In this document: piece after piece, positions 1 to 3,556 of the stretch | How positions within the stretch are numbered: the first letter of the stretch is position 1 | Layout: every line of letters begins with the position of its first letter | Assembly: GCF_000706765.1 (NCBI RefSeq) | Contig: NZ_CP006018.1 | Coordinates: 1,426,001-1,490,000, forward strand | Reading direction: 5' to 3' | Source of the DNA: Bifidobacterium [indicum] DSM 20214 = LMG 11587 | GTDB lineage: Bacteria; Actinomycetota; Actinomycetes; Actinomycetales; Bifidobacteriaceae | DNA length: 64,000 nucleotides | The notes under the pieces: generated by a model | What the model was told of the DNA's origin: nothing | The model's input: only the letters and a program-made list of their open reading frames with translations | Database searches by the model: none | Made by a program: the position numbers and the translations under genes

Positions 1-174
1 GGTGACATACTGGCGCTCGGCCTCCTTGTCCTTGTTGAATTGGATCCTGCCATCCGCGTCATAGAGGTTGAGCATGGCGTTCAGCGCATGATAGTCATGC
101 GCTGGATCATGGTCCTGCTCCTCACGGGTCCCCGTCTTGTCCAAACTGAGCGAAGTATCGTCGTAGGCGCCCAT
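1..174 (-). CDS. nrdE: Ribonucleoside-diphosphate reductase alpha subunit NrdE, N-terminal fragment
   Basis: Only the first 58 codons are present; the gene leaves the window on the left. Translation begins M-G-A-Y-D-D-T and contains [20 protein letters not shown], the typical N-terminal segment of the class I NrdE catalytic subunit. NrdE reduces ribonucleoside diphosphates to deoxyribonucleotides using a radical generated by NrdF. The ATG is preceded by an AGGAAAGG ribosome-binding site six bases upstream. It lies 43 bases after nrdI and is probably co-transcribed with it. The active-site cysteines are outside the window and could not be checked. Confidence 0.9.
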
Positions 175-217: not shown

Positions 218-727
218 TTATTCAGGATGATTGTGGAAGAAGTCGAGCACACCCTTACGGACCTTGTCTTCGTCTTCCTTGGTGCCCATGAGTTCGAAAT
301 AGTAGAGGAAGGGCACCTGGCACTTGCGTGAGATGATGTCACCGGCCATGCAGAAGGCGTCGCCGAAGTTGGTGTTGCCCGAAGCGATGACCCCACGGAT
401 GCAGGCCCGGTTCTGCGGATCGTTGAGGAAGCGCTTTATCTGGGGCATGACCGCCTTCTTGGCCGAACCGCCACCATAGGTCGGCACCACCAGAATGTAA
501 GGTTGGTTCACCTTGAGCTCAGGATCCTTGGGACGGAGGGGGATTCGGAACACATCAATCCCCTCATCCTCCAGATGGCAATTGGCGATGAATCTGGCCG
601 TGTTCTGCGAGGCCGAGGAGAAATAGACCACCGACCCTACACGGTCCCCCTTTGCAGCCAGCTCCGGAGGGCTGACCTCCCCCTGGCCCCCCGACCCGAC
701 TGGACCCGGTTTCGCCATATCCGACAT
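218..727 (-). CDS. nrdI: Flavodoxin-like NrdI
   Basis: The protein has 169 residues. It has the NrdI flavodoxin fold signature: [15 protein letters not shown] near residue 33 (FMN phosphate loop), a [14 protein letters not shown] segment, and [18 protein letters not shown] (flavin-contacting loop). NrdI delivers a flavin-derived oxidant to NrdF to form its radical. In class Ie enzymes it supports hydroxylation of a tyrosine to DOPA, which matters because the NrdF here is of that type. The first 28 residues are a Gly/Pro-rich extension of no clear role. The ATG follows an AGGAGG site at seven bases. It lies between nrdF and nrdE and appears to have its own promoter with paired NrdR-like boxes. 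Confidence 0.93.
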
Positions 728-804: not shown

Positions 805-851
805 CTACTATATATGGGGACTCGCCGCAAAACGAGCACCACATATTGTGC
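805..851. promoter_or_regulatory. Paired NrdR-box-like sites upstream of nrdI-nrdE
   Basis: Two 16-base sites resemble the NrdR consensus ACACwATATATwGTGT. Box one at 805-820 (ctactatatatgggga) matches about 11 of 16 positions and box two at 836-851 (gcaccacatattgtgc) about 12. Their starts are 31 bases apart, the helical phasing known for tandem NrdR boxes. They lie in the 168-base gap between nrdF and nrdI, implying that nrdI-nrdE can be transcribed and repressed separately from nrdF. Confidence 0.7.
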
Positions 852-895: not shown

Positions 896-1945
896 TCAGA
901 AATCCCAGTCGCCGTCATCCGTGGACTCCGAATGTCCCATGACATAGGATGACCCGGACCCGGAGAAGAAATCGTGATTCTCATTGGCCGACGGAGACAG
1001 TGCGGCCAGAATCTCCGAACTGACAGCGGTCTGGTCCGATCCGAACCGTGCCGGATAGCCCAGGTTCATCAGCGCCTTGTTGGCGTTGTACCGAACAAAG
1101 GCGAAGACATCGTCCACAAAGGGGAACCCCTCATAGATCTGGCCCGAGTAGACCATCTCCATGTCATAGAGCCTGTCGAGAAGGTCATTGGTGAACTTCT
1201 CCAGCATGACGCGGTCACCCTCGGTCCTATCCTCCAGGCCCCGCTGGAACTTATAACCGGAGTAGTAGCCATGAATGGCCTTGTCGCGCAGAATCAGGCG
1301 AATCATATCAGCCGTGTTCATCAGCTTGGCGTGACTGGAGAAATACAGCGGCAGATAGAACCCGGCATAGAGCATGAGGGAGGAGAGCATGGTGGAAGCC
1401 ACCTTGCGCTTCAACGGATCATCGCTGACATACTCCTGCAGGACCGCATGGACCCGCTCCTGGAGGACGTCATTGGCCACGGCCCAGCGATAGGCCCTGT
1501 CGATCTCGTCACTGGAGCAGAGGGTGGAGAAGACCGACGAGTAGGACCGGGCATGGACCGACTGCATGAAGGCGATATTGGTATAGATGGCCTGCTCCTG
1601 CTCGGTGCGGGCATGATCTATCTGAACCAGCTCTCCGATGGTGGCCTGGGTGGTATCCAGCATGGTCAGACCGGTGAAGACCCGGACCGTGGTCTGCCGC
1701 TCATGCTCGGTCAGACCATTCCAGGAGGGAATGTCATTGGACAGAGGAACCTTTTCGGGGAGCCAGAAGTTGGAGACCAGGCGATTCCAGACCTCCAGGT
1801 CCTTCTCATCGGTGATGTGGTTCCAATTGACCGGTCGGACCCTGCCCTCGGGATTGACCCGGTACTCGGGCGGGGTAATGGAGGCCTTCATCATCGCATC
1901 ATCCGCATAGGCCCCGGCTGCCTCGGTCTCGATTTTCGCACTCAT
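896..1945 (-). CDS. nrdF: Ribonucleotide reductase beta subunit NrdF, class Ie (QSK type)
   Basis: The protein has 349 residues and is clearly an NrdF, the radical-generating subunit that pairs with NrdE. Aligned by motif with ordinary class Ib NrdF, three metal-binding glutamates are replaced: FMESVH reads FMQSVH (Gln128), LLESFLFY reads MLSSLMLY (Ser188), and RDEAVHGYY reads RDKAIHGYY (Lys222). Asp97, His131, His225 and the radical-site Tyr135 are kept. This Gln/Ser/Lys set is the published signature of class Ie NrdF, which works without metal through a DOPA radical made with NrdI. The gene order nrdF-nrdI-nrdE also matches class Ie operons. The chosen ATG has an AGGTAGGA site; an in-frame ATG six codons upstream (1963) has none. 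Confidence 0.93.
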   Translation of the reverse strand: MSAKIETEAAGAYADDAMMKASITPPEYRVNPEGRVRPVNWNHITDEKDLEVWNRLVSNFWLPEKVPLSNDIPSWNGLTEHERQTTVRVFTGLTMLDTTQATIGELVQIDHARTEQEQAIYTNIAFMQSVHARSYSSVFSTLCSSDEIDRAYRWAVANDVLQERVHAVLQEYVSDDPLKRKVASTMLSSLMLYAGFYLPLYFSSHAKLMNTADMIRLILRDKAIHGYYSGYKFQRGLEDRTEGDRVMLEKFTNDLLDRLYDMEMVYSGQIYEGFPFVDDVFAFVRYNANKALMNLGYPARFGSDQTAVSSEILAALSPSANENHDFFSGSGSSYVMGHSESTDDGDWDF

Positions 1946-2058: not shown

Positions 2059-2106
2059 GCACTAGATATTGTTATCTCCAGTGCAGGCAACCACAATATA
2101 TAGGCT
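2059..2106. promoter_or_regulatory. Paired NrdR-box-like sites upstream of nrdF
   Basis: Two sites match the NrdR consensus: 2059-2074 (gcactagatattgtta, about 12 of 16) and 2091-2106 (ccacaatatataggct, about 13 of 16, with a perfect ten-base core). Their starts are 32 bases apart, within the usual 31-32. They lie about 110 bases upstream of the nrdF start and should allow repression by the ATP/dATP-sensing regulator NrdR, which is not encoded in this window. Confidence 0.75.
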
Positions 2107-2322: not shown

Positions 2323-3405
2323 TCAGATCAGCCCCTGCTCCTTAAGATCGGCACAGACCCGGATGACCCGGTCGTTGGCCTCGGCCTCCCCGATGGTTAT
2401 GCGTATGCCTTCGTTCGGGAAGGCCCTGACCGCGAGACCGTTGGCAAGGAAGCTCTCATAGGCCTGGTCCGTGGCCCCACCCAGGGGCAACCAGAAGTAG
2501 TTGGCCCGGGAGCGGGGAATCCACCATCCCTGCCCCTCCAGGGCGGCAACCACCTTGGCTCGTTCCTTCATGATGCCTTCCACGCGATCCCGGAGCTGGT
2601 CGGACACATCGAGACTGACCATGGCGGCCTCCTGGGCCATGTCGCTGACACCGAAGGGCAGGGCCACCTTGCTCAGTCCCTGGACCACCTCGGCCGGTGC
2701 CACAGCGTAGCCGATGCGCAGGCCGGCCAAGCCATAGGCCTTGGAAAAGGTTCTTGCCACAACCACATTGGGATGATTCCGCATGAGTTCCAGCCCCTTG
2801 GCCTGGGCGGGATCGTCATTGAACTGGAAATACGCCTCGTCGAAGAGAACCAGGACATCATCGGGCACCGCCTCAAGCAGGTGCAGCGCCTCCTCCTGCG
2901 AAACCGAAGTACCCGTAGGATTGTTGGGATTATTGACGATGACCAGGCGCGTTCTGTCGGTCAGAGAGGCAATCATGGCCTCGATGTCGTGCCCGCCCCT
3001 GTCGTTCAACGGCACCGGCACGCAGGTGGCTCCGGCACCGGTCACGATGATGGGATAGGCCTCGAAACTCCGCCAGGGATACATCACCTCATCCCCCTCG
3101 CCGGCCACAAGATTGACCAGCTGGGTGATGACCTCCGTCGACCCGCACCCCAGCTGGATGTTCTCCGGGGCAACCTGGTGCAGGCGGGCCAGGCGCTCGA
3201 CGAGCACCGTCCCACGCATATCCGGATAGCGGTTCAGGTGCACCAGGGCCCGGTCCGACACGGCCTCCCTGACAGCGGCCAGAGGAGGATAGGGGTTCTC
3301 ATTGCTGGAGATCTTATAGGGGGTCAGTCCCGGGGTGACCGGAGCCGCCTTGCCCTGCCTGTAGCCGGGCAGGGCGTCAATGGAAGAGCGATGTCTGTAT
3401 GCCAT
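2323..3405 (-). CDS. Histidinol-phosphate / aromatic amino acid aminotransferase, HisC family
   Basis: The 360-residue PLP-dependent class I/II aminotransferase starts MAYRHRSS. It shows the HisC-type N-terminal motif KISSNENPYPP, NNPNNPTGTS (PLP/substrate contacts), LVLFDEAYFQF, and the PLP lysine in RTFSKAYGLAGLRIGYA. It catalyses glutamate-dependent transamination of histidinol phosphate or aromatic 2-oxo acids. Because it is not beside other his genes, it could be the separate aromatic aminotransferase that actinobacteria often carry; sequence alone does not decide. An upstream in-frame start at 3453 adds 16 residues, but neither start has a convincing ribosome-binding site. It is monocistronic by appearance. 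Confidence 0.85.
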   Translation of the reverse strand: MAYRHRSSIDALPGYRQGKAAPVTPGLTPYKISSNENPYPPLAAVREAVSDRALVHLNRYPDMRGTVLVERLARLHQVAPENIQLGCGSTEVITQLVNLVAGEGDEVMYPWRSFEAYPIIVTGAGATCVPVPLNDRGGHDIEAMIASLTDRTRLVIVNNPNNPTGTSVSQEEALHLLEAVPDDVLVLFDEAYFQFNDDPAQAKGLELMRNHPNVVVARTFSKAYGLAGLRIGYAVAPAEVVQGLSKVALPFGVSDMAQEAAMVSLDVSDQLRDRVEGIMKERAKVVAALEGQGWWIPRSRANYFWLPLGGATDQAYESFLANGLAVRAFPNEGIRITIGEAEANDRVIRVCADLKEQGLI

Positions 3406-3556
3406 GGCCACCATGGTAGCGAGCCATGCGCCGGGCACAAGCTTCAGGACCACTTACGACACCACAGGGCTCGCATGGCGGACCCGGACGGCGCCCGGAT
3501 ACGAAAAAGCCGGGGCCCCTCAGGGCACCCGGCCAGAAAAATCGATAAGGTCCAGC

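Follow-up and report, generated by a model that had tools for sequence, protein, structure and literature searches.

The window, by which we mean the whole stretch of 64,000 nucleotides of Bifidobacterium indicum DNA analysed here, carries an nrdF gene whose product is by sequence a typical class Ie R2 of the QSK type. This gene, nrdF(QSK), abuts an ordinary class Ib operon, nrdI-nrdE-nrdF, in a genome that yields a single match each for NrdI and for the reductase large subunit (R1, NrdE). We consider it probable that the protein is a class Ie R2 and that this one R1 and one NrdI serve both it and the class Ib R2. The enzyme type itself is already known, in the same family and with structures, and the shared-partner arrangement is the interesting part.

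Translation of nrdF(QSK) gives an intact protein of 349 aa in which, counting from the ATG at position 1945, the residues of interest are D97, Q128, H131, Y135, S188, K222 and H225. An in-frame ATG at 1963 is a second possible start upstream of this one, and the start in a relative (locus L004), compared by eye, agrees with the ATG at 1945. Both Pfam and NCBIfam identify a ribonucleotide reductase small chain, and NCBIfam specifies the class Ib type, a label that is uninformative on the metal ligands. In HMMER alignments, the columns of Q128, S188 and K222 hold Glu in 3n37 and in 8j4x (named NrdF2), which we take to come from M. tuberculosis. The same columns hold Gln, Ser and Lys in 8RAG and 8RAH, whose alignment spans the last 337 residues of the window NrdF. 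The first-pass annotation had assigned Gln128, Ser188 and Lys222 to metal-ligand positions, and the translation together with these alignments to solved NrdFs places them there to the residue. It had also described Asp97, both histidines (His131 and His225) and Tyr135 as kept, and all four are present in the translated protein.

The window NrdF resembles class Ib NrdF, which uses a Mn2-Tyr radical (for example 8j4x), in its fold family, its NrdI and NrdE partners and its C-terminal tail, but it lacks the class Ib set of six ligands, D/E/H/E/E/H, because three of the six are replaced. It likewise differs from the R2 proteins of the VPK type (6gp2 and 8bt3 from Mesoplasma florum; 6ebo and 7mmp, presumably from Aerococcus urinae). 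Lys occupies the same position in these proteins and a DOPA mechanism would be expected for both types, but the window NrdF has Q and S where the Val, Pro, Lys triple has V and P. A class Ie QSK R2 also requires NrdI, which the genome encodes.

When alignment rows are sorted by the triple letters themselves, all 58 QSK rows have Q, S and K and all 64 class Ib rows have E, E and E at the three columns. Altogether 22 columns separate the two sets at a level of at least 90% on each side. The triple accounts for three of these, and the existence of the 19 others argues that the triple is not a chance occurrence. The window NrdF, which is itself among the 58 QSK rows, carries the QSK consensus in 21 of the 22 columns. 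Its sole departure is Met268 (in a 355-aa count) in place of Leu, and Met is found there in five of the 58 rows. None of the 122 NrdF rows varies at the Asp, the two His or the radical Tyr.

A quick tree of 108 NrdF rows places the 58 QSK rows in one group against 50 class Ib rows (support 100), and the window NrdF clusters with the 57 other QSK NrdFs (support 100). The 26 QSK rows from Bifidobacteriaceae form one clade (support 100), and the window species stands beside a B. asteroides-type group whose named members are B. choladohabitans, B. mellis and B. apousia. Three duplicates of named loci (L122, L123 and L130) were left out of this tree, of the NrdI tree and of the column alignment, and 14 further class Ib loci were left out of the NrdF tree. 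Matches to NrdF shorter than 800 bases were dropped, so that a decayed QSK remnant in genome G017 is absent from this tree.

The solved structures nearest to the window NrdF are 8RAG and 8RAH, the R2e-QSK of Gardnerella vaginalis, or Bifidobacterium vaginale (John et al. 2025, PMC11846895). According to the accessible text of that paper, this protein acquires DOPA at the conserved tyrosine upon co-expression with NrdI, and its DOPA form together with reduced NrdI yields dCDP (PMC11846895). The window NrdF is like it in the three substitutions, in the retained Asp, His, His and Tyr, in an extended N-terminus and in family, and the Gardnerella copy in our set (L011) has 78% identity. The gene context differs, in that B. 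vaginale has the order nrdHIEF with the QSK protein as its only class I R2 (PMC11846895, accessible text), whereas the window genome has a class Ib R2 in the QSK cluster and its NrdH gene elsewhere. Taken at the level of sequence, the residues, the closest structures and the tree all bear out the class Ie (QSK) assignment proposed in the first-pass annotation.

On the minus strand, the cluster runs nrdF(QSK), nrdI, nrdE and a six-ligand nrdF (Table 1). NrdF is matched twice in the genome, a single contig of 1,734,546 bases; NrdI, R1, class III NrdD and NrdR are matched once each, as is NrdH, which lies away from the cluster. The suggestion that the organism would make dNTPs without iron or manganese in this enzyme can hold for the QSK subunit. 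It does not extend to the whole cell, which is not metal-independent because a class Ib R2 and a class III enzyme are also encoded.

Table 1. Features of the nrd cluster in and beside the window, and divergent NrdF frames at loci of other Bifidobacteriaceae
Feature	Position	Strand	Basis or remark
nrdF(QSK), predicted class Ie R2 (R2e)	896..1945	-	translation, ligand alignment, tree
NrdR-type box pair upstream of nrdF(QSK)	2060..2103	-	CTATATATTGTG at 2103-2092, CAATATCTAGTG at 2071-2060; 32 bp start to start
Second NrdR-type pair, between nrdF(QSK) and nrdI	806..848	-	CAATATGTGGTG at 848-837, CCATATATAGTA at 817-806; 31 bp
nrdI	218..727	-	genome's only NrdI match; groups with NrdIs of Bifidobacteriaceae nrdI-nrdE operons
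nrdE (R1), start	1..174	-	genome's only R1 match; runs past the window, C1:1423979-1426174
nrdF (class Ib)	C1:1422754-1423749, just outside the window	-	six-ligand NrdF, last gene of the cluster
Aminotransferase gene (class I/II), upstream	2323..3453	-	flank of the cluster, not a member
Divergent NrdF frame	L169 1406-2782	-	near nrdE
Divergent NrdF frame	L170 9164-10501	+	near nrdE
Divergent NrdF frame	L172 1937-3259	-	near nrdE
Divergent NrdF frame	L174 8819-9991	+	near nrdE
Divergent NrdF frame	L181 1409-2719	-	near nrdE
Divergent NrdF frame	L182 9784-11241	+	near nrdE
Divergent NrdF frame	L178 1-759	-	near nrdE; cut at the locus edge

Each of the 27 genomes of the genus encodes a class Ib NrdF with all ligands and one full-length R1, and 18 of them carry an intact QSK nrdF, with none intact in the other nine. 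In 13 of the 18, nrdI_e, nrdF(QSK), nrdI, nrdE and nrdF(class Ib) follow one another in this order, and NrdI is accordingly matched twice in each of these genomes. The gene nrdI_e is thus present in all 13 relatives with the cluster and in neither of the two genomes of the window species. Three genomes (G015, G023 and G024) have the QSK nrdF apart from the nrd operon and one NrdI match each. Genome G017, the closest other genome by NrdE, carries a decayed, syntenic remnant of QSK nrdF (L135 8505-8935) that adjoins an intact nrdI-nrdE-nrdF(class Ib). This remnant has a large internal loss and a stop codon, its promoter region is gone, and nrdI_e is absent.

Across the family, 141 of 189 genomes gave an NrdF match at E 1e-100 or better. 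Among the matches listed, 55 genomes had one at E 1e-150 or better and 21 had two, in each case one QSK and one class Ib gene; the two were observed in one cluster in 15 of these 21. The triple was examined in every one of the 18 QSK genomes of the genus and in 19 of the 37 others, and it was QSK every time. We also looked at 19 QSK genomes outside the genus, chosen because the QSK gene seemed to stand apart. In 16 of these, no NrdF match other than the QSK protein reaches E 1e-100, and NrdI lies more than 10 kb from the QSK gene or on another contig. In the loci fetched from sole-QSK genomes, this NrdI adjoins nrdE.

Several irregularities were encountered among the relatives. The second genome of the window species (G014) has an nrdE matched in two frames, with an apparent frameshift near the start, either real or a sequencing error (L118 5119-7318). 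At another locus (L176 2986-5851), nrdE and nrdI are matched in several frames and the QSK nrdF of the same genome is in two pieces (L163), which suggests decay or assembly errors. The bee bifidobacterium G007 has two extra partial R1 matches beside its full-length R1. Near each end of its contig, partial class I R1 matches are accompanied by divergent R2 matches, and these two additional sets (C1:11933-14966 and C1:2179293-2182326), which score equally, perhaps represent a mobile element or an end overlap. An Rfam scan of two loci from relatives (L166 and L168) gave no match.

A quick NrdI tree grouped nrdI_e with QSK-linked NrdIs of other Actinomycetota (support 88, with open forks). A constrained tree in which nrdI_e was held with the Bifidobacteriaceae NrdIs (p-AU 0.682) had a score better by 7.96 log units, which means that the quick search had not reached the best tree. 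We then built a careful tree of 95 rows, for which ten rows were added and eight of the 13 nrdI_e rows were omitted, together with seven loci whose NrdI rows were long or odd. One branch of this tree (support 100/99) splits 51 NrdIs of Bifidobacteriaceae operons, those of the window and of Gardnerella among them, from nrdI_e, and the quick tree agrees on the split (support 100). We do not claim a horizontal origin of nrdI_e, since holding it with the Bifidobacteriaceae NrdIs was not rejected and the careful tree leaves its source unsettled. Loss of nrdI_e in the window species seems likelier than its gain in the relatives, because nrdIF(QSK) is a common order in print, with 104 cases in the accessible text of John et al. 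(PMC11846895).

With nrdI_e absent, the QSK R2 of the window species would rely on the class Ib NrdI. The NrdI of B. vaginale makes DOPA in a QSK R2, so an NrdI of the operon lineage can serve such a protein, and the window R2e need not be inactive for want of nrdI_e. In the text accessible to us, John et al. already conclude that a single R1 can serve QSK R2s along with ordinary ones (PMC11846895). The additional point, that one NrdI is common to the class Ib and QSK R2s, we infer here.

Possible control elements were sought with a consensus that we take to be that of the NrdR box. Both boxes of the pair upstream of nrdF(QSK) match it exactly. The window contains three box matches with at most one mismatch, compared with a mean of 0.52 in shuffled sequences, of which one in 100 reached three. 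The box-pair pattern has a single match in the genome, the one upstream of nrdF(QSK), and none in the reversed control. The second pair is weaker, as CAATATGTGGTG has one mismatch and CCATATATAGTA was found by eye. A similar sequence precedes nrdI in three relatives whose nrdI follows no QSK gene, and the second pair suggests that nrdI-nrdE-nrdF(class Ib) is a separate unit. With two pairs present, the arrangement is more suggestive of two units under NrdR control than of a single nrdFIE operon. On the coding strand, neither a promoter nor a terminator emerged from a consensus scan, whose counts were below the shuffle means. NrdR sites and oxygen induction have been reported for nrdHIEF of B. 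longum in the accessible part of one article (PMC6244367).

These data bear on how the gene order is to be understood. The three genes nrdF(QSK), nrdI and nrdE do stand in the order of VPK nrdFIE operons, and the first-pass annotation had read this order as matching class Ie operons. The order is real, but it arises because a QSK nrdF without an nrdI of its own abuts a class Ib operon, which ends in a second nrdF just outside the window. The likeness to VPK operons is on the surface and the make-up differs. Although nrdFIE is the class Ie order of the VPK type, it was not found with QSK according to the accessible text of John et al. 2025 (PMC11846895). In all 13 relatives with the cluster, one nrdI comes before nrdF(QSK) and a second, in nrdI-nrdE-nrdF(class Ib), comes after it. 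NrdR-type boxes separate nrdF(QSK) from the following genes, and the window NrdI groups with those of Bifidobacteriaceae nrdI-nrdE operons, in trees built without VPK operons. A true class Ie operon homologous to VPK nrdFIE is therefore very improbable, and on the strength of the relatives' clusters, the NrdI trees and the published orders we rejected the gene order as evidence for class Ie. It is just as hard to credit that the QSK R2 is a metalloprotein with the altered ligand set D97, H131, H225 and Q128. Three classical ligands are still present, but the Gardnerella structures 8RAG and 8RAH show no metal and have Lys in the Mn1 position, and X-ray fluorescence found only trace Mn and Fe, as stated in the accessible text (PMC11846895).

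A more serious alternative is that, its partner NrdI_e having been lost, the QSK gene is turning into a pseudogene while the class Ib R2 does the work in this species. The absence of nrdI_e from both genomes of the species speaks for it, as do the nine genus genomes without an intact QSK gene and the closest other genome, G017, where the promoter region and much of the interior are lost, a stop is carried and the decayed gene must be dispensable. Such decay may follow loss of nrdI_e. Against this, the QSK frame is intact in both genomes of the species, its NrdR-type boxes are kept, and, N-terminal extension aside, the protein departs only at Met268 where 90% of the QSK rows, including its own, agree. 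Measured against B. choladohabitans by the Nei-Gojobori method, dN/dS is 0.074 for nrdF(QSK), compared with 0.128 for nrdI, 0.100 for nrdE and 0.045 for nrdF(class Ib), and much of the underlying divergence may predate the loss of nrdI_e. In most of the distant pairs, dS was saturated. For four of five outgroups, the window QSK branch shows no significant excess of change; with B. bohemicum as outgroup it is faster (10 versus 2 unique residues, p=0.039). Differences between the two genomes of the species are too few to weigh: nrdF(QSK) differs at a single codon, synonymously, nrdF(class Ib) at four synonymous codons and nrdI at two codons, both nonsynonymous. We read these sequence comparisons as indicating that the function of nrdF(QSK) is maintained, with a minority chance of recent decay in view of G017, and we regard the pseudogene explanation as unlikely.

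A separate observation concerns QSK-bearing Bifidobacteriaceae outside the genus. Seven of 17 NrdI loci fetched from these organisms contain a very divergent NrdF frame near nrdE (Table 1) and nine contain none, while the NrdF at the remaining locus, L177, is an ordinary one resembling class Ib. In the six complete divergent frames, a Glu ligand is changed to Ile or Leu, a His ligand to Ser and the Asp to Glu, and the radical-transfer Tyr of the tail is changed to Thr or Asn, in a loose tail alignment. All six keep the last residues DDDWDF, which we take to be the expected R1-binding tail, and pN/pS is 0.25-0.46 in six pairs. No NrdF match other than the QSK R2 reaches E 1e-100 in the seven genomes with such a frame. 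Judged by their sequences, these frames resemble a class Ib R2 that has become a subunit without catalytic activity, perhaps still able to bind R1. Yeast Rnr4 is comparable in kind, and the candidate pseudo-R2 may regulate or scaffold R1 or the QSK R2.

In the mechanism that we propose for the window species, with one R1 and one NrdI serving two R2 proteins, reduced NrdI and oxygen would furnish an oxidant that enters R2e. By analogy with the Gardnerella protein, Tyr135 would become DOPA through hydroxylation by this oxidant, which would also produce the DOPA radical. Lys222 would take the place of the Mn1 cation, and the single NrdE would receive the radical. The class Ib R2 encoded in the cluster would use the same NrdI and NrdE with a dimanganese centre, and the class Ib NrdI would also mature R2e. 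Two adjacent units, each with NrdR-type boxes, might supply the two radical subunits, with the class Ie subunit carrying aerobic dNTP synthesis when manganese is scarce. We lean slightly towards the fuller version of this proposal, in which one NrdI and R1 serve both a dimanganese-type and a metal-free DOPA R2 and the class Ib NrdI alone has matured the latter since nrdI_e was lost. Catalase and superoxide dismutase genes are apparently absent from B. indicum and some relatives while other respiratory genes are present, a reported gene set that fits oxygen exposure; the accessible text of that article does not mention 'nrd' or 'ribonucleotide' (PMC3447821).

Among the literature matches listed, no title concerns class Ie enzymes of bee bifidobacteria, a dead bacterial R2 or a shared NrdI. 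A cluster of class Ie and class Ib genes with a single R1 and NrdI was likewise not among them, and the supplement of PMC11846895 may list one.

In B. indicum, a bifidobacterium of the bee-gut type, a metal-free-type R2 is kept beside a metal-using R2, with a single R1 and NrdI. Class Ie enzymes have been discussed as a route to life without metals, and here one harmless kind of organism makes two questions testable, namely under which conditions the metal-free R2 comes into use and whether a special NrdI is required to form DOPA. A ready control is provided by the 13 relatives with nrdI_e. If the proposed sharing is true, the cluster would act as a natural switch between metal and no metal that supplies a single reductase. 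It would also represent a natural partner-swap, and the specificity of NrdI would not be what separates class Ib from class Ie.
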